64,000 bases of DNA, from positions 1 through 64,000 of the forward strand of contig JAFGTT010000018.1 of assembly GCA_016933955.1 (NCBI GenBank), in the 5' to 3' direction. A program made the translations under genes and the position numbers. This DNA comes from Candidatus Zixiibacteriota bacterium. Its GTDB lineage: Bacteria > Zixibacteria > MSB-5A5 > GN15 > PGXB01. The notes under the pieces are model-generated. The model did no database searches. It was not told the origin of the DNA and worked only from the letters and a program-made list of their open reading frames with translations. Shown piece by piece: positions 3,142-63,685 of this stretch; the first letter of the stretch is position 1; the number at the start of each line of letters is the position of its first letter.

Positions 3142-4926
3142 ATGAAAAGATTACTATCCGGAAACGAGGCGGTTGCCCGAGGAACTTTCGAGGCCGGTGT
3201 AAAGCTGGCCTCGGCCTACCCCGGTACCCCCTCAACCGAAATACTTGAAACTATAGCCGAAGAATACCCCTCGATCTACGCCGAATGGTCACCCAATGAA
3301 AAAGTCGCATTCGAGGTCGGTATCGGAGCCTCCCTGGGAGGTGCACGCACGCTGGTGACCATGAAGCATGTCGGGCTCAACGTGGCGGCTGATCCGCTGA
3401 TGACGTTCGCCTATACCGGCGTCGGGCAGGGCGGATTTATTGTTATTTCCGCTGATGATCCCGAAATGCACTCCTCACAAAATGAACAGGATAACCGCCT
3501 GTTCGCGAAATTCGCCCAGATCCCTTTTCTGGAACCATCGGACAGCCAGGAAGCCAAAGATTTCATGCTGAAGGGATATGAAATCTCGGAAAAATTCGAT
3601 ACCCCGGTGATGCTTCGCCTAACCACCCGGATTTCCCATTCCAAAGGGATTGTCGAGGAATCCGATCCAATGGAGCCTCGGGCAGTCGGCTTTAAACGAG
3701 ATATGGAAAAGTTTGTGATGATTCCCTCGAATGCTAAAAAACGTCATGTGGTTTTGACCGAACGGTTGAAAAAACTGGCGGAGTATTCGGAAACGACCGA
3801 GTTGAATACGGTCGAGGAAAACGGCTCCGAAATAGGGATTATCACTGGCGGGATATCATACCAGTATGCCAAGGATAATCTGCCGGACGCCGACTATTTT
3901 AAGATTGGTTTCGGTTTCCCGCTTCCGCTGAAAAAGATCAGTAAATTTATCGAGTCGCACAAGCGGGTGATTATTGTCGAGGAGCTGGAGCCGTATTACG
4001 AGGAAATTATCCGGGCCGCCGGAATGAAGGTGGAGGGAAAAAAATATTTTTCCCGGCTCGGGGAATTGTCGCCGTACAAAGTCGGCCTGGGATTGAAAGA
4101 AGCCGGCTTGATTGATGAGATTAAGGGAGCCGAGATCGAAGCCGGCCCATTATTCCCGCGGCCGCCGGTATTATGTCCGGGATGCCCGCACCGGGGCGCT
4201 TTCATGGCGCTTAAAAAAGTCGGGGTAGCGGTAACCGGTGATATCGGCTGTTATACCCTGGCCATGCTTCCGCCCCTGCAAACGCTCGACAGCTGTATCT
4301 GTATGGGGGCTTCGATCGGAACTGCCATCGGGATGGAAAAAGTCGGCGGTTATGATAAGGGAGTGGTGGCGGTTATCGGTGATTCCACTTTCCTGCATTC
4401 CGGAATAACGGGTTTGCTCGATGCGGTTTACAATAAAAGCAATATTACCGTTATGATTCTGGACAACCGGGTAACGGCCATGACCGGCGGACAGCAACAC
4501 CCGGCCACCGGCTATACGCTGATGGGGGAAAAGACCCGGGCGGTTGACTTTACGGAATTATGCAAAGCTCTGGGAGTTGAATCGGTCCGGGTGGTGGATG
4601 CTTATGATCTGAAGGCCATGATCGATGTCATAAAAGAGGAGATGGCTCGGCCGGGGCCATCGGTGATTTTAACCAATCGTCCGTGTGTCCTGATGCCGAA
4701 GAGGATTATGGATCGACCCTATGTAGTCGATCCGGAGTTGTGCAACGGATGCACGGCCTGTTTCCGGATTGGCTGTCCGGCCATTATGCCATCGAAGGAA
4801 ATGACCAAACGGAACAAGCCCAAAGCGGTTATTGACCCGGTCCTGTGTACGGGATGCAGTCTTTGCGCCCAGGTGTGTAAACCCGAGGCGATTGTCCTGG
4901 CCGAAGAACCCGTGAGTGTAAAGTGA
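3142..4926 (+). CDS. iorA: Indolepyruvate ferredoxin oxidoreductase, alpha subunit
   Basis: Oxidatively decarboxylates aryl or related 2-oxoacids to acyl-CoA while reducing ferredoxin. The 594 residues have the family order: N-terminal pyrimidine-binding domain, a thiamine-diphosphate domain with CPGCPH near residue 345 and GDIGCYT near 364, and a C-terminal bacterial ferredoxin module. The first cluster motif is CNGCTAC...C near 533, with an insert before the last Cys. The second is CTGCSLCAQVC near 568. This is the usual full-length IorA. iorB follows after 8 nt, then butyrate kinase and two phosphotransacylases, which suggests that the acyl-CoA product is used for ATP synthesis. The exact 2-oxoacid range is an inference. 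Confidence 0.95.
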   Translation: MKRLLSGNEAVARGTFEAGVKLASAYPGTPSTEILETIAEEYPSIYAEWSPNEKVAFEVGIGASLGGARTLVTMKHVGLNVAADPLMTFAYTGVGQGGFIVISADDPEMHSSQNEQDNRLFAKFAQIPFLEPSDSQEAKDFMLKGYEISEKFDTPVMLRLTTRISHSKGIVEESDPMEPRAVGFKRDMEKFVMIPSNAKKRHVVLTERLKKLAEYSETTELNTVEENGSEIGIITGGISYQYAKDNLPDADYFKIGFGFPLPLKKISKFIESHKRVIIVEELEPYYEEIIRAAGMKVEGKKYFSRLGELSPYKVGLGLKEAGLIDEIKGAEIEAGPLFPRPPVLCPGCPHRGAFMALKKVGVAVTGDIGCYTLAMLPPLQTLDSCICMGASIGTAIGMEKVGGYDKGVVAVIGDSTFLHSGITGLLDAVYNKSNITVMILDNRVTAMTGGQQHPATGYTLMGEKTRAVDFTELCKALGVESVRVVDAYDLKAMIDVIKEEMARPGPSVILTNRPCVLMPKRIMDRPYVVDPELCNGCTACFRIGCPAIMPSKEMTKRNKPKAVIDPVLCTGCSLCAQVCKPEAIVLAEEPVSVK

Positions 4927-4934
4927 GGTGGATT

Positions 4935-5537
4935 ATGAATGAGGTTATCAATGTTCTGATAGTCGGGGTCGGCGGTCAGGGAGTCCTTCTGGCTTCGGAG
5001 GTTCTCTCGGAGATGGCCATGAAGGCCGGTCTCGATGTGAAAAAGTCGGAAGTCCACGGGATGTCGCAGCGGGGCGGAGTGGTCAGTTCCCATGTCAAAT
5101 TCGGTCCCAAAGTATATTCGCCGATTATTCCCTATGGTCAAGCCGATATATTAATTTCGTTCGAGCAAGCCGAGGCTCTGCGGGCGGTCGACTGGATAAA
5201 AAAAGACGGCCTGATAGCGACTTCACGGACCCGCCTGGTGCCGCCGATTACGGCCGGGGGGAAATTCAAATATCCCGATGATCCGGTGGCGGATCTTAAG
5301 AAGAAAGTCAAAAACGTGATTGCCATTGACGCCGATAAAATCGCCCTGGAGCTGGGGAATCCCCGGCTGGTCAATATTCTCCTTTTGGGGGTGGTTTCCA
5401 GCCGACTGGATTTCGAGATTTCGGTCTGGGAAGAAGCCATCCGGGCCCGGGTTAAAGCCAAGTTTGTCGATTTGAATCTGAAAGCGTTTGCCCGGGGCCG
5501 GGAACTGGCCAAGGAGTCGGCCGGGGCGGCCGTTTAG
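4935..5537 (+). CDS. iorB: Indolepyruvate ferredoxin oxidoreductase, beta subunit
   Basis: Partner of IorA and member of the pyruvate:ferredoxin oxidoreductase gamma-domain family; binds CoA and completes the active enzyme. The 200 residues open with the glycine-rich GVGGQGVLLAS and contain SEVHGMSQRGG, both hallmarks of this family. A reading frame from GTG at 4923 overlaps iorA, but GAGGTG at 4925-4930 is spaced correctly for the ATG at 4935, so that start is chosen. It is translationally close to iorA and 22 nt before buk. Confidence 0.93.
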   Translation: MNEVINVLIVGVGGQGVLLASEVLSEMAMKAGLDVKKSEVHGMSQRGGVVSSHVKFGPKVYSPIIPYGQADILISFEQAEALRAVDWIKKDGLIATSRTRLVPPITAGGKFKYPDDPVADLKKKVKNVIAIDADKIALELGNPRLVNILLLGVVSSRLDFEISVWEEAIRARVKAKFVDLNLKAFARGRELAKESAGAAV

Positions 5538-5559
5538 GCCATTAGCGGGGAGGGAAATT

Positions 5560-6627
5560 ATGCGGAAGGTGATAATCGTAATCAATCCCGGATCAACATC
5601 GACTAAAATGGCGTTGTTTGAAGAGAAAGCCCGGATGGTCGAGGAGGTAATCACGCATCCGGCCGATCAGCTGGCGGCTTTCGATAATGTCGCCGATCAA
5701 TTCGAGCTGCGGATGAAAAATATCGATGATTTTTTGACGGCCCAGAAGATCAATGAAAAAGAAGTTGTCGCGGTGGCCGGACGCGGGGCGCCTCTCAGAC
5801 CGCTGGATGGTGGCGTTTACCAGATCAACCGGAAGATGCTCGATGATCTCCGCGAAATGCGCTATTCCAACCATGCCTCCAATCTCGGAGCAATTATCGC
5901 CGACCATCTGGGGAAACGATACCATGTCCCGGCGGTTATTGTCGACCCGGTGACGATTGATAATTTCACCGACATTGCCCGTCTTTCAGGAATCCCGGAA
6001 ATAGAGCGGAAATGCCGGGCTCATGCTCTCAATATCAAGGAAGTCTGCCGCCGTCATTCCGAGACAATCGGGAAATCGCTCGAGCATTGCCGCTATGTGG
6101 CGGTCCATATGGGAGGAGGGATATCAATCGCGGCTCTTGATCGGGGGCGGATTGTTGATGTTAACGATGCTTTACTGGGGATGGGCCCGTATTCGCCGGA
6201 CCGGGCCGGCGCCCTGCCGATCGGGGCTCTGGTCAAACTGGCTTATTCCGGCCGTTACAGTGAAAAAGAGCTGATTACCCGATTATCACGGGAGTCGGGA
6301 TTAAAGGCATATCTCGGGGAATCGGATTTGCGCAAGGTGGAGCAGATGATCGAAAACGGTGACGACAGGGCGGCTCTTTATTTTTATGGCATGGCTTATC
6401 AAATCGCCAAGGAGATCGGGGCCTGTGCGGTGGTTCTTCGTGGGGAATTCGATGGTATTATTCTCACCGGCGGCATGGCCCGATCGGTAAAACTGGTAAA
6501 ATTATTACGGGATTATATCTCTTTTCTGGGCGAAGTCATCGTGGTTCCGGGCGAATTCGAAATGGAAGCGCTGGCGGCCGGAGCCCTGCGAGTTCTCAAT
6601 AAAACCGAAATCCCCAAAGAGTATTAA
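5560..6627 (+). CDS. buk: Butyrate kinase (acyl-phosphate kinase)
   Basis: Transfers phosphate from butyryl- or branched acyl-phosphate to ADP, the ATP-forming step of the pathway. The 355 residues equal the usual Buk length. The ASKHA-family signatures are NPGSTSTK at residues 9-16, the HMGGGIS loop near 183, and GMGPYSPDRAG near 205. The start at 5560 follows GGGGAGGG. A frame open further upstream overlaps iorB and has no better signal. It sits between iorB and ptb in one operon. Alternative names such as branched-chain fatty acid kinase would fit equally well. Confidence 0.93.
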   Translation: MRKVIIVINPGSTSTKMALFEEKARMVEEVITHPADQLAAFDNVADQFELRMKNIDDFLTAQKINEKEVVAVAGRGAPLRPLDGGVYQINRKMLDDLREMRYSNHASNLGAIIADHLGKRYHVPAVIVDPVTIDNFTDIARLSGIPEIERKCRAHALNIKEVCRRHSETIGKSLEHCRYVAVHMGGGISIAALDRGRIVDVNDALLGMGPYSPDRAGALPIGALVKLAYSGRYSEKELITRLSRESGLKAYLGESDLRKVEQMIENGDDRAALYFYGMAYQIAKEIGACAVVLRGEFDGIILTGGMARSVKLVKLLRDYISFLGEVIVVPGEFEMEALAAGALRVLNKTEIPKEY

Positions 6628-6654
6628 ACCCGGATTGACAGGAAGGGAGATGCT

Positions 6655-7614
6655 ATGGACGGTAAACCAATAACCTCTTCCGATCAAATTATCGAGTCGG
6701 CTATCAGACTGGCCCGAATAGCCGGGAAGAAAGTGGTGGCGGTCGCTGGGGCAAGCGATGTCGATGTTCTCGGAGCCCTGGCCTCGGCGCATGCCGATGG
6801 GATTCTCGAGGCGGCCCTTTTCGGCGAGAAGAATAAAATCGAAAAAGCGGCCGATGAGGGCGGGATCGATATCTCCGGTTTGGAGATCATGCCCGAAGCG
6901 GATGCCGCCGGGGCTGTATATGGGGCGGTTAAAATGGCCGCCGAGGGTCGAGCCGATATCATTATGAAGGGCTTTGTATCAACCTCGGCCCTGCTTAAAA
7001 CGGTTCTCTCCCGGGATTTCAGCCTTCGTACCAAAAACCTGGTTTCACACACTGCCGTTCTGGATATCCCCGGTTATCATAAACTGCTGTCGATGACCGA
7101 CGGGGGGATGGTGGTCCGGCCGAATTTCGATCAGAAAATTCAGATAATCGAAAACGCTGTATTGGTCGCCCGGGCGCTTGGTCTGATGCCGGTCCGGGTG
7201 GCTATATCCGGGGCATTTGACCAGGTCCGGGAGGATATGCCGTTGACGATCGAAAACAGCGAAATCAAAGCCCGGATCGAGATGGGAAATATGGAGGATG
7301 TAGTCATCCAGGGTCCGATGACATTCGATGCCGCCACATCCGCCGAGGTATGTAGAATCAAAGGTATTACCGGTCCGGTGGCCGGTCAGGCCGATATTTT
7401 CGTGGTCAACAGCATCGAGGAGTGTAATATCATTGCCAAAGCTTTGATTAATTTCGTCGAGGCGGTTTTTGCCGGAGTTATAGTCGGGGCCCGGGTGCCG
7501 ATCAGCCTGGTATCGAGGACCGATACCATCAAGAATAAAAAAGCCTCGGTGTCAATTGCCTGCCTGGTGGCGGAATACTACAAGCAGAGCGGTGTTATGG
7601 GAGGTGACCAATGA
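6655..7614 (+). CDS. ptb: Phosphate butyryl/acyl-transferase, copy 1
   Basis: Converts acyl-CoA plus phosphate to acyl-phosphate and CoA, feeding butyrate kinase. The 319 residues match the Pta/Ptb family: an N-terminal Rossmann-like part (VVAVAGASDVDVL), KGFVSTSALLK near 104, LVSHTAVLDIPGYHKL near 130, and a C-terminal SAEVCRIKGI...GQADIFVV. A GGGAG Shine-Dalgarno precedes the ATG. The stop overlaps the start of the second copy by 4 nt (ATGA), which indicates translational coupling. Confidence 0.9.
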   Translation: MDGKPITSSDQIIESAIRLARIAGKKVVAVAGASDVDVLGALASAHADGILEAALFGEKNKIEKAADEGGIDISGLEIMPEADAAGAVYGAVKMAAEGRADIIMKGFVSTSALLKTVLSRDFSLRTKNLVSHTAVLDIPGYHKLLSMTDGGMVVRPNFDQKIQIIENAVLVARALGLMPVRVAISGAFDQVREDMPLTIENSEIKARIEMGNMEDVVIQGPMTFDAATSAEVCRIKGITGPVAGQADIFVVNSIEECNIIAKALINFVEAVFAGVIVGARVPISLVSRTDTIKNKKASVSIACLVAEYYKQSGVMGGDQ

Positions 7615-8537
7615 TCAGATCCTTTGCCGAACTTGAGGACCAAGTTAAGTCCGGAAGTGATGGGAAGAAAGTCCCCCGGATGGGAATTATATATCCGCGC
7701 GGCGGGAAATGTCTCGAGGCGGCCACCGCCGCGGCCTCCGAGAAAACCGTAAAGGTCAGCCTGATTAGTCCCCGTGAGGCCATTGAGGATTGCATCGTCA
7801 GAGAGGGTTGCGACCTGTGCGGGATGGAAATAGTGAATGTTGACAGCCTTGAAGAGGCCGTCCGAACCGGTGTGAAAATGGCCCGCGCCGGGGAGCTTGA
7901 TTTTCTTTTAAAAGGTTCGGTCGGAACGAGGGAGCTTATCGATGTTCTTCTCCTTTCCGATACAGGCTTTGTGTCAGGAGGCGGGATTCTGTCGCATGTC
8001 GGAATCATGGAAACCGAGCGGTATCACAAGCTGATATTTATTACCGATGCGGCAGTCAACAACGAGCCGGATGCCAGTACTAAAATCGCCATCACGCGCA
8101 ATGCCGCCACGGTGGCCCGGAAACTGGGGGTGGAATCGCCCCGCGCGGCACTTCTGGCGGCCGTTGAAGCCATCTATCCGGCTGTCCCGGTGACGATGGA
8201 AGAAGCGGCTATAGCCAAGATGTCGGATCGGGGGCAGATTAAGGATGTCATTATCGATGGTCCGTTGTCTTTCGATGTAGCTATCAATGCCGAGGTGGCG
8301 CGATCAAAGGGTATTACCAATTCAGCAGTGACGGGCGAAACTGACATTTTTGTCGGCCCATCGATGGAAACGGCTAATGGCCTTTATAAGGCGATGGTGA
8401 TTTATGTCAGGGCCAGGGCGGCCGGTTTGATTTGGGGAGGGATAGCCCCGCTGGTAACCACTTTCGCGGCAGATCCGATCGAAAATGTGAGCAATTCAAT
8501 CAGGCTTGGAATATACCTTTCGCAAACCCGAGACTGA
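7611..8537 (+). CDS. Phosphate acyltransferase, copy 2
   Basis: A second, diverged member of the phosphate acetyl/butyryl-transferase family, 308 residues. It keeps the family landmarks KGSVGTRELID, ILSHVGIMETERYHKL and NAEVARSKGI...GETDIFVG, but differs clearly from copy 1, for example an aspartate/asparagine-rich AAVNNEPDAS where copy 1 has GGMVVRPNF. It overlaps copy 1 by 4 nt. It may have another acyl-chain preference or form a hetero-oligomer; both are inference. It is the last gene of the operon, and no clear terminator follows. Confidence 0.88.
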   Translation: MIRSFAELEDQVKSGSDGKKVPRMGIIYPRGGKCLEAATAAASEKTVKVSLISPREAIEDCIVREGCDLCGMEIVNVDSLEEAVRTGVKMARAGELDFLLKGSVGTRELIDVLLLSDTGFVSGGGILSHVGIMETERYHKLIFITDAAVNNEPDASTKIAITRNAATVARKLGVESPRAALLAAVEAIYPAVPVTMEEAAIAKMSDRGQIKDVIIDGPLSFDVAINAEVARSKGITNSAVTGETDIFVGPSMETANGLYKAMVIYVRARAAGLIWGGIAPLVTTFAADPIENVSNSIRLGIYLSQTRD

Positions 8538-50476: not shown

Positions 50477-51442
50477 TCAGACATGATTACGCAACATCAA
50501 TTCTTTCGGGTGCGGGTTAAGGTATATCTGGTCTTTGATGTACTCGATATTATGTTTTAAAACATAATGTTTTATAAGCGTCAGGGGAACGACCAGCGGT
50601 ACCAGGGCGCGATGGTAATCCTCGATAACCGATAAAATCGATTGCTTGTCATCGGAAGTAATTTTATTCTTTAGAAAGCCAAGAATATGCATCAGAACAT
50701 TGACATTCTTTTTAATCGTTGTCTTAACCCCGAGATTGTCCATGAATAACCGGCTGTATCGGTCCCGGAACTCAGTTGGGGGGAGGTCCTTGATCCTTGC
50801 CACCAATTGCCCCATTTCCCGGTAATGTTTCGGGCTGTGAGCCAGAAGCAGGTACTTGTGATTGGTGTGAAAATCAATCACCGACCGGCGGCTGAAACGA
50901 TCGTCGAACAATTGATTCAGCCGGGCATAGGCAAAAACCCGAACGATAAAGTTTTCTCTCAGGGCCGGATCGTTAAGCCGTCCTTCCTCCTCAACCGGGA
51001 GAAGCGGAGAATGTCGTATCAGGGCGGCGGCATAAAGACCTCGTCCGGTCCTAGCGGGAATGCTTTTACTGAACACTTTCACCCGTTCCATCCCGCAACT
51101 GGGGGAATTTTTTTTCAGGATGTACCCCGACAGATTTTCGCGCTTCAGCTTTTTGGTCCATTTAGCGGCAAAGCGATTCATCCGATCGGTCCAGTCACGA
51201 CGGCTTTTAATGCCGATCATACGCGGATTATCGGGAGAGCCTTCAAGTTGAACCGCCTCGCGCGGGACACTCATACCGACTTCAACCTCCGGGCAAACCG
51301 GGACAAAGTGGAAGTACTCCCCGAGAATATCAGTCAGATAGTGGTTCTGTTTATGCCCGCCATCGAAGCGGACTTTCTGACCCAGCAGGCAGGCGCTGAT
51401 ACCGATTCGAATTGATGATACCGATTTTCCGGCCGACACCAT
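50477..51442 (-). CDS. TudS-like (DUF523) domain fused to YbgA (DUF1722) domain
   Basis: The 321-residue protein joins two domains. Residues 1-150 are DUF523/TudS, whose members bind a [4Fe-4S] cluster with three cysteines and desulfurate thiouracil; Cys18 (SACLLG), Cys50 (VCPE) and Cys116 (SPSCG) are the expected ligands. Residues 165-310 are YbgA/DUF1722 (FHTNHKYLLLAHSPKHYREMG). This fusion is common in bacteria. AAGGGA lies before the ATG. It is the first gene upstream of ppa. The true substrate is unproven. Confidence 0.9.
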   Translation of the reverse strand: MVSAGKSVSSIRIGISACLLGQKVRFDGGHKQNHYLTDILGEYFHFVPVCPEVEVGMSVPREAVQLEGSPDNPRMIGIKSRRDWTDRMNRFAAKWTKKLKRENLSGYILKKNSPSCGMERVKVFSKSIPARTGRGLYAAALIRHSPLLPVEEEGRLNDPALRENFIVRVFAYARLNQLFDDRFSRRSVIDFHTNHKYLLLAHSPKHYREMGQLVARIKDLPPTEFRDRYSRLFMDNLGVKTTIKKNVNVLMHILGFLKNKITSDDKQSILSVIEDYHRALVPLVVPLTLIKHYVLKHNIEYIKDQIYLNPHPKELMLRNHV

Positions 51443-55099: not shown

Positions 55100-55204
55100 C
55101 CCCCAATGGTGTCCCCTCGCCAAAGGTCTTGTCTCAGAAATAATTATGATGTATATTTTAAAACCGAATTTACGTAAATTTAACCGGTGAGAGTGCAAGG
55201 CGAA

Positions 55205-56512
55205 ATGGCGAAAAAAACGTTAATCATTATACTTCTGATAAGCGGCGTTATCATGCAGTCGGTTGCCTCTGAAGAAACCGCAGAAAGAAATAACTTCAGG
55301 CATTTAAAAATATCGTTTTCGGAACGCCTGCGATTGGTGACCTGGGACAATACCATAACCCTGGCCGATTCAGCCGCCCAAACCACCACTTTTACCCGTC
55401 ACCGGACCAGCCTGATGGGGCAGTATTATCCTGATCCGAAAATGGAACTGGCCCTGAAACTGACCAACGAATTCCGCTATTATTTTATACCGGCCGACCG
55501 CGAATTCGAGATCGATGAGATTTTTGTCGATCAGCTTTATTTGAAATGGAATCTGAAAAAGCCGCTGGATGGGATTCTGACTCTTGGAAGACAGAATATT
55601 ATGCTGGGTGAGGGGTTTATCGTAATGGACGGACATCCTCTGGACGGTTCCCGCTCGATTTATTTCAATGCCGCGCGGTTCGACTGGCGGATAACTCCCG
55701 GGCATGAACTAACCGTTTTTTACAGCTATCAGGAAGAAATCGATGAATGGCTTCCGGTGATAAACGAAGTTGACCAGGTTTTGGTCGAGCAACCCGAGGA
55801 AGGGATCGGTTTGTATTATTCCGGCAGGATAAACCGCTATGATATCCAGGGGTATTATGTTCGGAAAAATGTCGATGCCAACAATATCGATACGCTAGCA
55901 TCGGAAATCAACACGATCGGGGGTCGGATTGTATCTCCATTGATTGAGAGTCTGTCGGTAACCGGCGAGGGAGCATTCCAGTTCGGCCAAGCGGGACAAT
56001 ATGATCGGGCCGCATTCGGGGGGTATTTTCATCTTGATTATAAAACGGTCTGGCCTTCGTATCTGCCGAAAATGATTCAGCTGGGAGTTATCTGCCTGAG
56101 CGGGGATAATCGGGCTACCGAGAAAGATGAAGGGTGGAATCCAATATTTGCCCGCTGGCCCAAGTGGAGCGAATCGTATATTTATACCCAGATCAAAGAG
56201 GACCGGGTGGCCTGGTGGACCAATCTGGCCTCGCTTTATGGCCGGTGCGATTTCGATTTCACTCCGAAGATTAACCTCAGTTTGCAATATCACCATTTGA
56301 TGGCTCCGCGGGTGGCGGACCCGGAATCGGCTTTTCCCGGCGGAGATGGACATAACCGCGGTAACCTTTTCATCGGCCTGTTGAAATTCGTCATCGATAA
56401 GAACTTGACTGGTCATTTTCTGTGGGAAGGTTTTCTGCCCGGCAATTATTATTTTCATGGAGCCGACGGATACAGCTGGGTTCGGGCCGAACTCCTTTTC
56501 AAGGTCGGATAG
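55205..56512 (+). CDS. Outer-membrane beta-barrel (alginate-export-like)
   Basis: The 435-residue precursor has a signal peptide (about 1-22, SVAS). The mature part is an alternation of amphipathic beta strands ending at an aromatic residue near the C-terminus (SWVRAELLFKVG), as in 16-18-strand barrels. LTLGRQNIMLGEGFIVMDGHPLDGSR is typical of the alginate-export (AlgE-like) family. It probably exports or takes up a small molecule or polysaccharide. The start ATG 55205 has AAGGCG 4 nt before it; an upstream GTG is less good. The last 14 nt overlap the convergent regulator gene. Confidence 0.83.
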   Translation: MAKKTLIIILLISGVIMQSVASEETAERNNFRHLKISFSERLRLVTWDNTITLADSAAQTTTFTRHRTSLMGQYYPDPKMELALKLTNEFRYYFIPADREFEIDEIFVDQLYLKWNLKKPLDGILTLGRQNIMLGEGFIVMDGHPLDGSRSIYFNAARFDWRITPGHELTVFYSYQEEIDEWLPVINEVDQVLVEQPEEGIGLYYSGRINRYDIQGYYVRKNVDANNIDTLASEINTIGGRIVSPLIESLSVTGEGAFQFGQAGQYDRAAFGGYFHLDYKTVWPSYLPKMIQLGVICLSGDNRATEKDEGWNPIFARWPKWSESYIYTQIKEDRVAWWTNLASLYGRCDFDFTPKINLSLQYHHLMAPRVADPESAFPGGDGHNRGNLFIGLLKFVIDKNLTGHFLWEGFLPGNYYFHGADGYSWVRAELLFKVG

Positions 56513-57434
56513 ACTTCAACTCCGTAATCAAACTATCGAGATCGTTTATCGGTATGGCTCCAATTTCAGCGAGAATCCCACGGTAGTTTTCAATTCCACG
56601 CCCGCCGGCAAGAATCGAAATATCGCCATTGAGTAGTTTTTTCAACCGACGCAGTTCCCGTACCAGAAGAGGATCATTTAAAGGATAAACAATACTCAGA
56701 ATGACTACTGGTGCTTCCCTTGTATTGGCGGCATGGGCAATATCATCGGCAGGCATATCCGGCCCGAGATAAATCGGCCGCCAGCCCTCGAATGAGGACA
56801 GAATTGCCGCAATCATTGCCCCGAATTCATGGGTCTGACCGCGAGGCGTGGTGGCTATTAGAACAGGGGCAGAATGGGATAATCTGAGAGAAGACATCAT
56901 CTCGCCCAGAAAAGTCCGAATAACCGCCGAAGCGAGATGCTCGTGAACAATTTTAAGACTGCCCCTGGCCCAGAGATTGCCAATTTCATACATCAGGGGC
57001 TGAATAACCTTTGTAATCAATACCCGCTGACTCAAATCAACCGAGGCGCGCAACAAAACCGCCTCCAGTTTGACGGAATCAAGTTCATGGATAGCCATAA
57101 TGCAATTTTCGATGATTTCGCGTAACGGTTGCCCCGCTCCCGGGCCATTCAACTTTGAATCCTGATAAGGTATGGATGGTGATTTGGAATTTTCACCCAG
57201 CATATTCCGGAGTTCTCCAGTCGATAAACCGGCAATCTGACTGATACTTTCGCCGGATTCAGTGGCCTGATGCAGCAGTTTCAGTTTTTCAATATCCTCA
57301 TCGGAATACAGCCTTTGGTTAGTACTCGATCGCTCCGGAAGGATAGCCCTGTAACGTCTCTCCCAAATCCTGATCAGATGGGGGGAGAGGCCGGTTTTTT
57401 TGGAGACGACTCTTATGGGGTGTTTTGCAATCAT
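56499..57434 (-). CDS. CarH-like MerR-family regulator with B12-binding domain
   Basis: The 311-residue protein has an N-terminal MerR HTH (VVSKKTGLSPHLIRIWERRY), a helical bundle, and a cobalamin-binding Rossmann domain. The light-sensing signature W-x9-EH is complete: Trp155, Glu165, His166. The cobalt-ligand loop THEFG has His202, and the downstream fold (VILSIVYPLNDP; ILAGGRGI) binds the nucleotide tail. In known CarH proteins adenosylcobalamin makes a DNA-bound tetramer that falls apart in light. Start ATG 57434 is chosen because the upstream TTG belongs to the promoter. It has 3 nt or less of leader. Confidence 0.9.
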   Translation of the reverse strand: MIAKHPIRVVSKKTGLSPHLIRIWERRYRAILPERSSTNQRLYSDEDIEKLKLLHQATESGESISQIAGLSTGELRNMLGENSKSPSIPYQDSKLNGPGAGQPLREIIENCIMAIHELDSVKLEAVLLRASVDLSQRVLITKVIQPLMYEIGNLWARGSLKIVHEHLASAVIRTFLGEMMSSLRLSHSAPVLIATTPRGQTHEFGAMIAAILSSFEGWRPIYLGPDMPADDIAHAANTREAPVVILSIVYPLNDPLLVRELRRLKKLLNGDISILAGGRGIENYRGILAEIGAIPINDLDSLITELKSIRP

Positions 57435-57435
57435 A

Positions 57436-57472
57436 ATGTACCATACATATATTATTGTCAAAGTTTTGTCAA
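57436..57472 (-). promoter_or_regulatory. Promoter/operator of the CarH-like gene
   Basis: On the minus strand TTGACA (57467-57472), 17 nt, then TATGTA (57444-57449), which overlaps the dyad ATGTA-CCA-TACAT (57436-57448). A second TTGACA copy (57456-57461) lies between. The transcript would start within a few bases of the ATG, so the mRNA may be leaderless. The dyad at the -10 is suited to autorepression. Confidence 0.55.
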
Positions 57473-57505
57473 GGTATATAATGTAAACTTGCTTTAAATT
57501 GTTCC

Positions 57506-57525: not shown

Positions 57526-57674
57526 TATAATTATGCCAATAGAAATTATAAACCATTGTAATATAATAAGATATTAAATATTCAAGATTCTTATACAATA
57601 TGGGAACAATAATTAGACATTTTCTGTTATGATAGTCATGGAAGACAGAAAACACTAATGAAGGAGGATTTAAG

Positions 57675-57896
57675 ATGAAATCGTTTAACATTATCGTGGC
57701 GGCGCTTCTGGTGATTGGCGGTCTGAATTGGGGGCTGGTTGGGCTTTTCAATTTTGATCTGGTCGAAAGCATTTTTGGCGACATGACTGCACTCAGTCGC
57801 ATTGTTTATGGCCTGGTCGGTCTCAGTGCCCTGTATCAGATAATCCAATTCAAGTCAATTCAGCAGCGCACAAACGTTGTTTCAGAAAGTAATTAA
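57675..57896 (+). CDS. DUF378 small membrane protein
   Basis: A 73-residue membrane protein. The first helix is rich in glycine and tryptophan (LLVIGGLNWGLVGLFNFDLV), the diagnostic segment of DUF378, and a second helix is at about 42-60. AAGGAGG precedes the ATG. It is divergent from the CarH-like regulator with a shared 240-nt region, so it could be a target. The function of the family is unknown. Confidence 0.87.
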   Translation: MKSFNIIVAALLVIGGLNWGLVGLFNFDLVESIFGDMTALSRIVYGLVGLSALYQIIQFKSIQQRTNVVSESN

Positions 57897-57984: not shown

Positions 57985-59307
57985 ATGTTAAGCAAAAGAA
58001 TTATTGCAGGATTTACAGCCATCGTTTTAGGTTTGATCTTTGTCGCCGGATGCAGTGATGATGACAATAATCCCATGAAATCTGTTTCTAAGATGACTTC
58101 ATCCATTCGTGTAATTCATGCCAGCTATGATGCGCCCGAGGTTGATATTCGGGTTGACGGAACCGTGGCCATCGGAGGACTTGGTTACGGGCAATCATCA
58201 GGATATGCCGAAATTTCTGATGGTGTGCGCAATATTTCGGTGACTCCGGCTGGTGCCAACTCACCGGTTGTGATTGAAGCCGATCTGGATCTTGAGGTAA
58301 ACACCTCATACACTGTCTTCGCAGTTAACAATCTCGGTTCGATTGAGCCGGTGGTGGCGGTTGATGATCGGTCGCAAGTGCAGAGCAAGGCCAAGGTTCG
58401 TTTTCTTCATGCTTCGCCTGATGCCCCGGCGGTGGATATTAAATTGAACAGCGGCGACGGTCCGACCGTGTTTGTCAATAAGGCCTTCAAGGATATTACC
58501 GAGTATGCCGAGGTAGATCCCGGTTCTTATACTTTTGTGGTAACCCCGTCCGGAGACAATTCCGAAGTTCTTATTTTTGAACCAATTAATGTCACTGCCG
58601 GTGTGATCTACACTGCGGTGGCTCATGGGACACTGGACAATACCGACCTTTATGATTTGGCAGTCCGCATTTTCGTGGACAACAACGATGGCGACCTGTT
58701 TGTGGATTTGAAGCCGGCTGTCACCAAAGTCCTGGTGGCCCATGCTTCCCCTGATGCACCGGGGGTGGATTTATTGATTGACGACCTAGTGATAAACAAT
58801 ACCTCTCTGACCTTTCCCAACAATACCGGCTATCTCGATGTAAATGCCGGTGATCGGGGAGTTAAAGTTAATGTCAGCGGAAGCATGACAACGGTTATTA
58901 ATGCCGGACTTAATCTTGATGCCGGTATGGCCTACTCCATTTTTGCAGTGAACAGCGTATCCAATATTGAGCCGCTGGTTCTGGTTGATGATCTGACGAC
59001 TCCGGCGGCCGGCATGGCTCATATTCGCTTCCTGCATCTTTCTCCCGATGCTCCGGCGGTAGATATTACCCTGACTGACGATACGGTGGTTTTTGGAAAC
59101 AAGGCTTTCAGAGATTATACTTCTTTTACACCGCTTAATGCCGGCTTGTATGATTTACAGGTAAGAGCCGCCGGGACTTCAATGGTCATCCTGAATCTGC
59201 CCGGAATCAATCTTGAGGATGGCAAGATTTATACTGTTTTTGCCAAAGGATTTCTGGCTGGCAGTGGTGACACAGCCATCGGGGCGGCGATCATTGTCAA
59301 TAACTGA
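57985..59307 (+). CDS. Lipoprotein with four DUF4397 repeats
   Basis: The 440-residue precursor has a lipoprotein signal with Cys23 (VAGC) and then DDDN. Four repeats of about 100 residues follow, each opening with a variant of RVIHASxDAPxVDI (RVIHASYDAPEVDI, RFLHASPDAPAVDI, VLVAHASPDAPGVDL, RFLHLSPDAPAVDI) and ending in YTVFA. This is the DUF4397 beta-sandwich, a surface or periplasmic module of unknown role. AGAGGT lies before the ATG. It is cell-envelope anchored. Confidence 0.92.
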   Translation: MLSKRIIAGFTAIVLGLIFVAGCSDDDNNPMKSVSKMTSSIRVIHASYDAPEVDIRVDGTVAIGGLGYGQSSGYAEISDGVRNISVTPAGANSPVVIEADLDLEVNTSYTVFAVNNLGSIEPVVAVDDRSQVQSKAKVRFLHASPDAPAVDIKLNSGDGPTVFVNKAFKDITEYAEVDPGSYTFVVTPSGDNSEVLIFEPINVTAGVIYTAVAHGTLDNTDLYDLAVRIFVDNNDGDLFVDLKPAVTKVLVAHASPDAPGVDLLIDDLVINNTSLTFPNNTGYLDVNAGDRGVKVNVSGSMTTVINAGLNLDAGMAYSIFAVNSVSNIEPLVLVDDLTTPAAGMAHIRFLHLSPDAPAVDITLTDDTVVFGNKAFRDYTSFTPLNAGLYDLQVRAAGTSMVILNLPGINLEDGKIYTVFAKGFLAGSGDTAIGAAIIVNN

Positions 59308-59534: not shown

Positions 59535-59595
59535 TTAGAGCGAATTTGTCGATGTTTGCCAACATGAAAAACTTGCTTTGGGGTTAATAAAGGTC

Positions 59596-61524
59596 ATGGG
59601 AGTCATAAAATTATATTCAGCAATTTCTGTTTTATTGATTTTTTTAGTATTTGTGTCAGGTCCGGCGATGGCCGTGGAAAGCGCCGATTGTCTTGAATGT
59701 CATGAAAAGACCACCGGTGAGAAAGAGAGCGGTTACGACCGCGCCATGGCCATGTCGATCCATGACGGCCTGGAGTGCATCGATTGCCATACCGGGATCA
59801 GCGATCTGCCGCATGATGAAGACCTGCCGAAAGTTGATTGCGGTACCTGTCATGATGAGGCCGCCAGGATTTACACCCAGCACGGGCGGATGAGCCTGAA
59901 GGACGGCTACGATATTCCCGAATGTATTGATTGCCACGGCAAACATGATATCCTTCCAGCGGCCGATAAAAACTCGAGAGTGAATCCAATCAACCTTCCC
60001 GAAACCTGCGGCCGCTGTCATGATGATATCGATCTGACCAAACGTCATGATATTCTGTACGGCAAAGCGGTGGAGCTTTATAAAAGCAGTGTTCATGGTC
60101 AGGCCGCGCTGGGCGGGGTGTATGTGGCGGCCACCTGCAACGACTGTCATTCCACCGGGGGCACGGCCCACCGGATTCTCGGCCCCGGTAACCCGGAATC
60201 GTCGATCAATCATTTTAATATTCCGAAAACCTGCGGCAAGTGCCACCAGAATGTGGAAAACGACTATTGGGAAGGTATCCACGGCAAGCTGGTCAAGCGG
60301 GGGGAAACGGATTCCCCGGTCTGTACCGATTGCCACGGCGAGCACGGTATCATTTCACCGAGCAACCCGGAATCCCGGGTGAGTCCCTCACGGGTGGCCG
60401 AGGCAACCTGTTCTCCGTGCCATGAGTCGGCCCGTCTCAACGAAAAATACGGTATTCCATCGGGACGGTTGCAAACCTATGTGGACAGCTACCATGGCTT
60501 GAAAAGCAAGGCGGGCGACCTGACCGTGGCCAACTGCGCCTCCTGTCACGGGGCCCATCGCATTCTGCCGCACACCGATCCGACGTCCTCGATTTACCCG
60601 GCCAATCTCCAGGAAACTTGCGGCCACTGCCATCCCGGAATTACGGCGGAAATGGCCAAAACACCCATTCATAGTACCCCCGGAATATCCCAGACGCCGG
60701 TGGCCGGTATTGTCAAGAGTATTTATATCGTGGTAATTACTCTGATAATCGGTCTGATGGTGGTTCACTGGCTACTTGATTTGCGCAAGAAGCTCAAACA
60801 GGTCAGCGAAGGCGATCAGGTCAGGCGGATGACGATCGGCGAGGTCTGGCAGCATACGTTCCTGATGGTTTCCTTTATTGTTCTGGTCATTTCCGGATTC
60901 GCTCTCCGGTTTTATAATTCCTGGTGGGTCAATACCCTGTTCGGCTGGGAGGGCGGATTTCCTTTGCGGGGAATCATACATCGGGTCGCGGCCGTGGTTT
61001 TTGTCTTAACCGCTATCTGGCATGTGGTATATTTATTCTCACCGCGGGGCAAGCAATTCCTGAAGGATATGATGCCGGGTTTGAGAGATTTTCACGGCTT
61101 TGTGAAAACTATTCTGTACAATATCGGTATCGGCAAAATTAAGCCGGGATTCGGGCGTTTCAGCTATGTCGAGAAAGCGGAATACTGGGCCCTGGTCTGG
61201 GGGACAGTGATTATGATCATCAGCGGCTTTTTCCTCTGGTTCGACAATTTCGCGGTGGAATGGTTCCCCAAGGGATTTCTGGATGTGGTCCTGGTGATTC
61301 ATTATTATGAAGCCTGGCTCGCTTTCCTGGCCATTCTCATCTGGCATATGTATTCGACCATCTTCAATCCCGATGTATACCCCATGAATCCTTCCTGGTA
61401 CACCGGCAAGATGCCCAGGAGAATGTACGAACATGAACATGCCGAAGATTTGAAACTGACGGGAACACCGACAATTACCCCGGATGAAAATAAAAGCGGG
61501 GATATGCCCGATCATAAAGGCTGA
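59596..61524 (+). CDS. Eleven-heme cytochrome c fused to a membrane b-type cytochrome
   Basis: The 642-residue precursor has a signal peptide (about 1-27, PAMA). Residues 30-360 contain eleven CxxCH heme sites (CLECH, CIDCH, CGTCH, CIDCH, CGRCH, CNDCH, CGKCH, CTDCH, CSPCH, CASCH, CGHCH). After a helix at about 378-400 comes a four-helix b-type cytochrome with His residues in pairs (IIHRVAAVV...AIWHVVYLF; VIHYYEAWL...ILIWHMYSTIF) that can hold two b hemes. This layout resembles Geobacter CbcL, which moves quinol electrons to periplasmic cytochromes. AAAGG is very close to ATG 59596; TTG 59578 is an alternative start. Confidence 0.88.
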   Translation: MGVIKLYSAISVLLIFLVFVSGPAMAVESADCLECHEKTTGEKESGYDRAMAMSIHDGLECIDCHTGISDLPHDEDLPKVDCGTCHDEAARIYTQHGRMSLKDGYDIPECIDCHGKHDILPAADKNSRVNPINLPETCGRCHDDIDLTKRHDILYGKAVELYKSSVHGQAALGGVYVAATCNDCHSTGGTAHRILGPGNPESSINHFNIPKTCGKCHQNVENDYWEGIHGKLVKRGETDSPVCTDCHGEHGIISPSNPESRVSPSRVAEATCSPCHESARLNEKYGIPSGRLQTYVDSYHGLKSKAGDLTVANCASCHGAHRILPHTDPTSSIYPANLQETCGHCHPGITAEMAKTPIHSTPGISQTPVAGIVKSIYIVVITLIIGLMVVHWLLDLRKKLKQVSEGDQVRRMTIGEVWQHTFLMVSFIVLVISGFALRFYNSWWVNTLFGWEGGFPLRGIIHRVAAVVFVLTAIWHVVYLFSPRGKQFLKDMMPGLRDFHGFVKTILYNIGIGKIKPGFGRFSYVEKAEYWALVWGTVIMIISGFFLWFDNFAVEWFPKGFLDVVLVIHYYEAWLAFLAILIWHMYSTIFNPDVYPMNPSWYTGKMPRRMYEHEHAEDLKLTGTPTITPDENKSGDMPDHKG

Positions 61525-61535
61525 TCGTAATAGAT

Positions 61536-62177
61536 ATGGGCGGGAATAACAGGCGGCAGTTGATTCCGGCCGGGATAATGGCGGCGGCTCTGCTTGTTGG
61601 CTGGATATGGCTCCCGGTTTTGCCGGCCGCGGGGCAATTGATCAATGATTGTCTGACCTGTCATGAAGACCCCAACCTCACCGGCGAGCGGGATGGCCGG
61701 CAGATTTCCGTTTATCTCGATATCGGAAAATACCGGAAGTCGATGCATGGTGAAATGGAATGTATCGACTGCCACAGCGACCTTGACGGGGTAGAGGATT
61801 TTTCCCATACCGAACGACTGGAACCGGTCGATTGCGGTCTTTGTCATGTTGAAATCGCGGAAATATACAACGGCAGTCTCCACGGCCGGGCGGTGAAAGA
61901 GGGGGGCAGGCTGGCCCCGAGATGCGCCGATTGTCACGGCGCCCATGATATTCTGGCCGTTTCTTCACCCGATTCCCGGGTGACCAAATTCAATATACCT
62001 TTTGTCTGCAGTCGCTGTCACAAGGAAGGAACGGCCGTTTCGGAAACGTATGATATCCCGCAGGACAGTATCCTCATCCATTATTCGGAGTTGATTCATG
62101 GGGTGGGGCTGTTTAAGCAGGGTTTGACGGTAACGGCAGTATGTTTAGTTTCTGTATATGAAAGAAAAATACTATGA
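61536..62177 (+). CDS. Five-heme cytochrome c, truncated
   Basis: The 213-residue precursor has a signal peptide (about 1-32) and five CxxCH sites (CLTCH, CIDCH, CGLCH, CADCH, CSRCH). It follows the pattern of the neighbouring eleven-heme protein, where the segment DSYHGLKSKAGDLTVANC leads directly into ASCHGAHR. Here the matching SELIHGVGLFKQGLTVTAVC is followed by LVSVYERKIL and a stop. The sixth heme site and everything after it are missing, so this looks like a deletion of the 3' part. Its stop overlaps the next gene by 4 nt. Confidence 0.82.
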   Translation: MGGNNRRQLIPAGIMAAALLVGWIWLPVLPAAGQLINDCLTCHEDPNLTGERDGRQISVYLDIGKYRKSMHGEMECIDCHSDLDGVEDFSHTERLEPVDCGLCHVEIAEIYNGSLHGRAVKEGGRLAPRCADCHGAHDILAVSSPDSRVTKFNIPFVCSRCHKEGTAVSETYDIPQDSILIHYSELIHGVGLFKQGLTVTAVCLVSVYERKIL

Positions 62178-63685
62178 AAAAATTGAAATTCCCGCGACTG
62201 GCCTATAACTGGTTGAGCGGAATAGGGATTGTCGGCGCCGTCATAACCATTCTCCTGATGACTTTTCTTTATGTGATCGGGATATTTACCCGGGTTACCA
62301 ATCCTTATCTGGGGATATTTCTTTACATGGTTCTGCCTCCGATCCTGGTGGTCTCGCTGTTGCTTATTCCTCTGGGGATGTTTCGAACCTGGCGACGGGT
62401 CCGGAAAACCGGGGAGGTCAGCTATCCCAGCTGGCCCTATGTGGACCTGAATCAGAAAAGCCACCGTAATGCCGCCCTGGTATTCATTCTCGGCACCGGA
62501 TTGTTTGTCCTGGTCAGCGCCGTGGGGGGATACGAAGCCTATCATTATTCCGAATCGGTCGCTTTTTGCGGTAAGACTTGCCATACGGTCATGAAACCGG
62601 AGTTCACAGCATACCAGAATTCACCTCATGCCCGGGTGGCCTGCGTGGCCTGTCATGTCGGTCCGGGGGCGGACTGGTTCGCAAAATCGAAAATATCGGG
62701 GCTTTATCAGGTTTATGCCGTCATAGCGAATGTTTACCCGAGGCCGATTGAAACCCCGATTAGAAATCTTCGTCCGGCCCGGGAAACCTGCGAGCAGTGT
62801 CATTGGCCGGCCAAGTTTTTCGGAGGCCAGCAACGCGTTTTCAACCATTACATGTATGATCATGATAATACCCGCTGGTCGATCAATCTGCTGGTTAAAA
62901 CCGGCGGTGGTAACCCCGAAGTCGGTCGTCCCTCCGGTATCCACTGGCATACCTTCCTGACCAATAATATCGAGTACATCGCCCGTGACCGGCAATTGCA
63001 GAATATCCCCTGGGTCAGGGCCACCAATATCGAAACCGGGAAAGCAACGGTTTACCGGGACAAGGAGAATCCGTTGAGTGATGAGGAAATCGCGGCCGCA
63101 ACTCCGCGCCGGTTCGACTGCATGGATTGCCACAATCGCCCCAGTCATATATATCATTCTCCGGATTATGACGCCGATATAGCCATGGAGGCCGGACGGA
63201 TCAATACGACTCTACCGGATATCAAGCAAGTTGCGGTCAAAGCGATGGCGGCCAAATATGAGAATGATACGGCCGCTACCAACGGTATCGCGGGAGCCAT
63301 TACCGAATATTACCGCGATCATTATCCGGAAATAATTAAAACCCGTCCGGATGATATCAACGATGCTATCGCCGCGGTGCAGGATAAGTATGCACAGAGT
63401 ATTTTCCCGGAGATGAAAGTCCGCTGGGAGGTTTATCCCGATAATATCGGCCATTTTATCAGTCCCGGATGTATGCGCTGTCACACCGGTAGCCTGACCA
63501 CCGAGGACGGCCATATCCTTTCCCGTGACTGTACTATCTGTCATACGATTATTTCGCAGGGAAAAGACGGTGCAACCGTTATGGCGACTTCGCCCGATGG
63601 TCTTGAGTTTGTTCACCCGGAAGATATTGACGAAGCCTGGAAAGAAATGAATTGCAACGAGTGCCACAGCGGCACTCAACCATAG
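62174..63685 (+). CDS. Membrane-bound NapC/NirT-type multiheme cytochrome c
   Basis: The 503-residue protein has three N-terminal hydrophobic helices (about 15-40, 47-68, 98-118), so it is anchored in the inner membrane. The first heme site near residue 132 is CGKTCHTVM, a CxxxCH with a nearby Met as in NrfH/NapC-like sites; then six CxxCH (CVACH, CEQCH, CMDCH, CMRCH, CTICH, CNECH), seven in all. It probably accepts quinol electrons and passes them to the other cytochromes. It starts inside the truncated cytochrome gene (ATGA overlap), with no clear ribosome-binding site. Confidence 0.87.
   Translation: MKKLKFPRLAYNWLSGIGIVGAVITILLMTFLYVIGIFTRVTNPYLGIFLYMVLPPILVVSLLLIPLGMFRTWRRVRKTGEVSYPSWPYVDLNQKSHRNAALVFILGTGLFVLVSAVGGYEAYHYSESVAFCGKTCHTVMKPEFTAYQNSPHARVACVACHVGPGADWFAKSKISGLYQVYAVIANVYPRPIETPIRNLRPARETCEQCHWPAKFFGGQQRVFNHYMYDHDNTRWSINLLVKTGGGNPEVGRPSGIHWHTFLTNNIEYIARDRQLQNIPWVRATNIETGKATVYRDKENPLSDEEIAAATPRRFDCMDCHNRPSHIYHSPDYDADIAMEAGRINTTLPDIKQVAVKAMAAKYENDTAATNGIAGAITEYYRDHYPEIIKTRPDDINDAIAAVQDKYAQSIFPEMKVRWEVYPDNIGHFISPGCMRCHTGSLTTEDGHILSRDCTICHTIISQGKDGATVMATSPDGLEFVHPEDIDEAWKEMNCNECHSGTQP

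Follow-up and report, generated by a model that had tools for sequence, protein, structure and literature searches.

CarH is known chiefly as a light switch for carotenoid genes. The locus described here raises the question of what a CarH-like protein senses and controls in a member of the Zixibacteria whose genome, a 3.38-Mb draft assembly that is 96.6% complete, yielded no phytoene synthase. The locus lies in a stretch of 64,000 nucleotides (64 kb), referred to as the window. We consider it probable that the protein is a CarH/LitR-type, adenosylcobalamin (AdoCbl)-dependent light-sensing repressor, which would act through two operator arrays, O1 and O2, and in light would allow expression of its own gene and of a divergent DUF378-DUF4397 gene pair.

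The carH-like gene occupies 56499-57434 on the minus strand (ATG 57434-57432, stop 56501-56499) and encodes 311 residues. At its 3' end the gene shares 14 bp with a convergent gene for an outer-membrane protein (55187-56512, plus strand), so that carH is monocistronic here. On its other side, an intergenic region of about 240 bp leads to a divergent gene for a DUF378 small membrane protein of 73 residues (57675-57896, plus strand). A co-directional gene for a probable lipoprotein with four DUF4397 repeats (57985-59307, plus strand) follows 89 bp after DUF378. Beyond it lies a cluster of multiheme c-type cytochrome genes (59578-63685, plus strand), the first of which carries a formate-dehydrogenase-gamma-like membrane domain; the cluster suggests anaerobic or extracellular electron transfer.

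Domain organization and predicted fold

The protein comprises a MerR DNA-binding domain (residues 7-70), a four-helix B12-binding_2 domain (109-176), and a Rossmann B12-binding domain (about 190-311). The corresponding Pfam families, MerR_1, B12-binding_2 (PF02607), and B12-binding (PF02310), are arranged as in CarH. MerR_1 is matched with an E value of 4.5e-15, and the recognition helix motif RxWERRY is present as R22-I-W24-E-R-R-Y28. The top phmmer match is Thermus thermophilus CarH (E 1e-27), with 31% identity across 277 aligned positions, and the nearest PDB sequences are Thermus CarH and its variants.

An AlphaFold model was built from 54 aligned homologues. It has a mean pLDDT of 92.7, with disorder confined to the interdomain linker (residues 83-99). 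The best structural matches of the model are Thermus CarH chains with bound AdoCbl, and the sensor domain superimposes on Thermus CarH with a Z score of 24.1 and an rmsd of 2.4 Å over 198 residues. On the sensor domain, CtMerR of Chloracidobacterium and photocobilins rank lower, at Z 22.5, and domains from methyltransferases and methionine synthase lower again, at Z 16-19.

The preliminary description had proposed a CarH-type B12/light regulator from Trp155-x9-Glu165-His166 and His202. The reading frame is real, and W155, E165, and H166 of the Wx9EH motif and H202 lie at those positions. None of the 54 homologues departs from E165, H166, or H202, and W155 is nearly invariant among them. All elements of the signature published for light-responsive B12 domains, GxxW, EH, GxxH, and GxxxP (PMC11796333), are found, as G152xxW155, E165H166, G199xxH202, and G224xxxP228. 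The B12 motif of class I LitR, searched for as HxxG-x41-SxT/V-x22-27-GG, is present with spacing HxxG-x41-SxV-x27-GG (H202, G205, S247-x-V249, and G277-G278), in which the His is the lower ligand. Domain order, Wx9EH, the lower-ligand His, the spacing of the B12 motif, and RxWERRY are all common to the class I LitR protein of T. thermophilus, CarH (LitR). Assignment to the CarH type is thus supported by domains, signature, and fold, with which the neighbourhoods and the operator agree. The score against the NCBIfam CarH equivalog NF052513 is 127 bits, below the curated cut-off of 400, so the protein is a divergent member of the CarH/class I LitR type and not a strict equivalog. It is best filed as a putative repressor of that type with a little-described predicted regulon.

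Departures from Thermus CarH

The signature had also been called complete. This holds for the photosensing core, but the equivalents of four other Thermus residues, His132, Arg176, Gly160, and Glu175, are replaced. His132, the upper cobalt ligand of Thermus CarH in the light state, corresponds to Ala156. Arg or Gln is usual here across the clade, Ala or Ser also occurs, and His is rare. Arg176, which forms the dimer salt bridge R176-D201 in Thermus, is Thr201, with the Asp kept as D226. Gly160 of the Thermus tetramer interface is Arg184, with Gly192 kept as G217. Such salt-bridge and tetramer partner residues vary among characterised CarH members (PMC9304148). Glu175 is Gln200, with loss of the acidic residue that precedes the ligand His in the D/ExH motif; Gln is found in 56 of 66 homologues. 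Gln200 is taken as variation and not as a defining feature, because the GxxH element of the published signature needs no acidic residue (PMC11796333).

CtMerR of Chloracidobacterium thermophilum (8JBS/8JBT) shares the sensor fold and the full light signature, and it too has no His at the 132 position, with Arg in place of the Ala156 found here. It is reported to pass from tetramer to monomer in light (PMC11796333), so that His132 is not a defining residue of the class. CtMerR differs in its sensor domain, which is 24% identical, and in its DNA-binding domain, which is reportedly divergent and expected to recognize a different site.

With His132 and Arg176 replaced by Ala156 and Thr201, an exact copy of the Thermus oligomer switch is impossible. 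Reports on the H132A variant of Thermus CarH conflict, describing it in light either as dissociating or as remaining mostly a tetramer (PMC10442372). The photosensing core, as judged from its residues, is thus intact, but the way in which it is predicted to act on the oligomer state cannot match that of Thermus CarH in every detail. The clade-wide loss of His132 bears on a live dispute over the need for bis-His ligation in the CarH photoswitch.

Predicted operators and their conservation

The DNA sites of CarH proteins are tandem repeats of 11 bp, nnnnTnnACAn, lying over promoter elements (PMC9304148). The predicted operator O1 (57456-57472, minus strand) consists of two perfect tandem 11-bp repeats, TTGACAaaactTTGACA, with units at 57472-57467 and 57461-57456. 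The whole 64-kb window contains just three perfect tandem pairs, of which O1 is one. O1 overlaps the -35 element of the predicted carH promoter (57433-57461, minus strand; TTGACA-17-CATTAT, 10/12, a consensus match only), this element being the second O1 repeat. It also overlaps a predicted plus-strand promoter that faces DUF378 (57455-57482; TTGTCA-16-TATAAT, 11/12, likewise a consensus match only). The predicted operator O2 of the DUF378 operon (57592-57619, plus strand) lies 83 bp upstream of DUF378 and is composed of TATACA, GGAACA, and TAGACA, separated by atatg and ataat. It has 11 of 12 consensus letters at 11-bp spacing. GGAACA of O2 (57603-57608) sits 19 bp before a TATGAT on the plus strand (57628-57633).

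The promoter next to the ATG that the preliminary description had noted thus exists, but its -10 element overlaps the ATG. The suggested leaderless mRNA is not borne out, because the best promoter would start transcription inside the reading frame; a leaderless start would require a weaker -10 element, is not conserved, and is at odds with the Shine-Dalgarno-like leaders of some relatives. A dyad beside the ATG had been put forward as the binding site. TGTA-CCA-TACA is present at 57437-57447, but the 240-bp intergenic region holds four dyads of equal size, so that this one is no more than expected by chance. The dyad at 57436-57448 was rejected as operator in favour of the tandem repeats at 57456-57472 and 57592-57619, which fit the CarH code and are conserved. 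A tandem array of 11-bp TnnACA repeats, as predicted at O1 and O2, is almost certainly the true operator, and Thermus CarH has an operator of the same tandem 11-bp TnnACA kind.

Allowing at most one mismatch, the triple pattern has nine matches genome-wide, including O2, and about 6e-4 are expected per 240 bp. Genome-wide, there is no clear enrichment of such triples (nine versus five in a reversed control), and the matches include arrays that resemble DnaA boxes (TTATCCACA); no further targets are therefore claimed. At the photolyase gene of the source genome (G000), two perfect repeats lie 118 bp upstream, and the triple is weak (10/12, shuffle P 0.06). No array was found at the photolyase gene in the two other carH genomes scanned in which it is distant from carH (G026 and G044).

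Conservation of the predicted operator is the strongest new evidence of the analysis. In carH genomes of the same family and order, DUF378 promoters score 9-12 of 12 consensus letters, mostly at least 11; the weakest regulator-bearing cases, G030 and G054, score 9/12, no better than shuffles. In G037, an array is also found at a DUF378 gene on a contig separate from carH; the second DUF378 gene of this genome was left out of promoter scoring. The best DUF378-promoter score in four genomes with DUF378 and without the regulator is 7-8, the level of shuffles. Among 47 CarH-like loci outside Zixibacteria, 18 reach at least 11/12 at a period of 11 bp, and no locus does so at periods of 7-10 or 12-17 bp. 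At a threshold of at least 10/12, 36 of these loci are recovered at period 11, against at most seven at any other period. As a positive control, the scan recovers the known Thermus operator at 12/12.

Predicted target module and probable inducing signal

Of the 60 genomes examined, 11 encode a full-length relative of the protein. DUF378 is present in 10 of the 11 carH genomes and in 4 of the 49 others (Fisher 1.4e-7, kinship not corrected). In 9 of the 11 it is divergent from carH and is followed by DUF4397 or FAS1 lipoprotein-like genes; in many relatives the DUF4397 gene is replaced or joined by fasciclin (FAS1) proteins. Outside Zixibacteria, 72 loci collected with the same profile have FAS1 nearby in 18 cases, and FAS1, DUF378, or DUF4397 in 25. 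FAS1 was not found in the source genome, and a FAS1 target was rejected there.

The divergent target of Thermus CarH is crtB, whereas here the predicted one is DUF378-DUF4397, in a genome without phytoene synthase. A carotenoid target was rejected on this ground, and the predicted target is a membrane/surface-protein module. The conserved predicted sites suggest that the regulator controls its own gene and the DUF378-DUF4397 pair, not pigment genes. In a literature search that mostly left subscription papers aside, and that included DUF378 papers and FAS1 combined with CarH or LitR, no link of CarH to DUF378, FAS1, or DUF4397 was found; this target appears to be little described. The comparative evidence for this different target, the DUF378-DUF4397/FAS1 module, is strong and offers these uncharacterised families a first testable role in a light or photo-oxidative response.

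The neighbours of carH in relatives include light-damage genes. A photolyase-family gene is present in 9 of the 11 carH genomes and in 8 of the 49 others (6.7e-5, kinship not corrected). Downstream of carH lie photolyase in five genomes, UvdE in one, and TspO, one gene further, in one. These are often accompanied by genes for an SRPBCC protein, an NAD(P)-binding protein, and RudS, the last as part of the carH-photolyase operon. Thermus carH is adjoined by phr and uvsE; here, a photolyase/UvdE neighbourhood is seen only in relatives. Pseudomonas class II LitR regulons (PplR/PmlR) likewise include a light-inducible set, with photolyase, RudS, and a short-chain dehydrogenase, close to a LitR/CarH regulator (PMC9758184, PMC11417400). 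Class II LitR has the helix bundle only and works with a LOV photoreceptor, whereas the present protein has both B12 domains. RudS genes occur in light-responsive operons (PMC11417400), and in Mycobacterium kansasii phrB, tspO, and a pair of FAS1 genes are among those induced by light (PMC9861118). In the window, a RudS-type protein, a 2-thiouracil desulfurase (PF04463) fused to DUF1722, is encoded at 50480-51442 (minus strand), about 5 kb from carH. No 11-bp repeat array was found in its upstream region, and it was rejected as a carH target. At another locus (L058 of genome G034, 4391-7957), photolyase, an SRPBCC protein, and DUF378 lie inside 3.6 kb; CarH was not detected in that genome and the repeats are absent, so the module either outlives loss of the regulator or predates it.

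The preliminary description had advised a search for carotenoid or photolyase genes elsewhere in the genome and had thought a light or B12 sensor unexpected should the organism live in dark anoxic sediment, so that it might respond to B12 or another signal. Phytoene synthase is absent, as noted, and one photolyase-family gene was recovered, on another contig and followed by an SRPBCC protein gene. The genome also encodes two CobA/BtuR adenosyltransferases and contains reading frames that by eye resemble methylmalonyl-CoA mutase, so that AdoCbl should be available; a PduO-type adenosyltransferase was not found in it. Cytochrome bd is present and no heme-copper oxidase was found in the genome, which suggests low-oxygen life, though not absence of oxygen or light. 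The objection therefore loses its force: the genome has photolyase and cytochrome bd, relatives link carH to photolyase, UvdE, or TspO, and light is the likeliest signal.

In the dark, AdoCbl would be held between the helix bundle (Trp155 and Glu165) and the Rossmann domain, with His202 as lower ligand. The AdoCbl-bound protein would oligomerize and bind the tandem repeats, O1 covering the promoter of carH itself and O2 that of DUF378-DUF4397, and both would be kept off. Light would break the Co-C bond and dissociate the oligomer, and carH and the DUF378-DUF4397 genes would come on. The induced genes would be part of a photo-protection response, joined in relatives by DNA photolyase, UvdE, TspO, and FAS1 proteins, and the DUF378/DUF4397 products may protect the cell envelope.

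The main alternative is a sensor of AdoCbl availability, in which repression would track cobalamin and light would have no bearing in the organism's habitat. To our knowledge, every characterised CarH requires AdoCbl for DNA binding, so that CarH reports B12 as well as light. The missing His132 and the respiratory gene set would also suit this alternative. We regard it as unlikely, because the neighbours in relatives are light-damage genes and not genes of B12 uptake or synthesis, because the photoreceptor residues that hold the adenosyl group are conserved as Trp155 and Glu165, and because the source genome itself has a photolyase.

It is less probable still that the protein acts as a MerR-type activator by twisting a DUF378 promoter with a long spacer. 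The 19-bp spacing in O2 is typical of MerR-activated promoters, and GGAACA recurs in the DUF378 promoters of many relatives, but judged by eye its distance to TATGAT varies among them. Tandem direct repeats over -35 elements are, moreover, a known repressor design (PMC9304148). A repressor that works without B12, like Myxococcus CarA, and is freed by some other signal or protein would fit the altered oligomer interface and the Gln in place of the acidic residue of ExHxxG, but it is just as improbable since the Trp of Wx9EH is absent in CarA (PMC9304148) and kept here as Trp155. A CarS-type antirepressor was not noticed among the neighbouring genes.

Returning to the light-sensing repressor, the regulator is of a known kind, and its divergent clade may already be contained in database mining for B12 photoreceptors. 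We propose, tentatively and with more doubt than confidence, that a broad CarH-like clade with Gln for Glu175 and Arg, Gln, or Ala for His132 extends over Zixibacteria, Latescibacterota, Acidobacteriota, Gemmatimonadota, and other phyla, that many of its members are linked to DUF378/FAS1/DUF4397 membrane/surface proteins and not to carotenoid genes, and that DNA release in this clade would proceed without bis-His ligation, possibly as a low-oxygen switch.

A separate variation is seen in the marine gammaproteobacterium Litoricola and its relatives (L152, L156, L157, L159, L160, L161, and L164). Their CarH homologues have Thr for the key Trp and keep the EH pair and the ligand His. The 11-bp repeats score 10/12 at these loci, and it is possible, from these sequences, that light sensing was lost and DNA binding retained.
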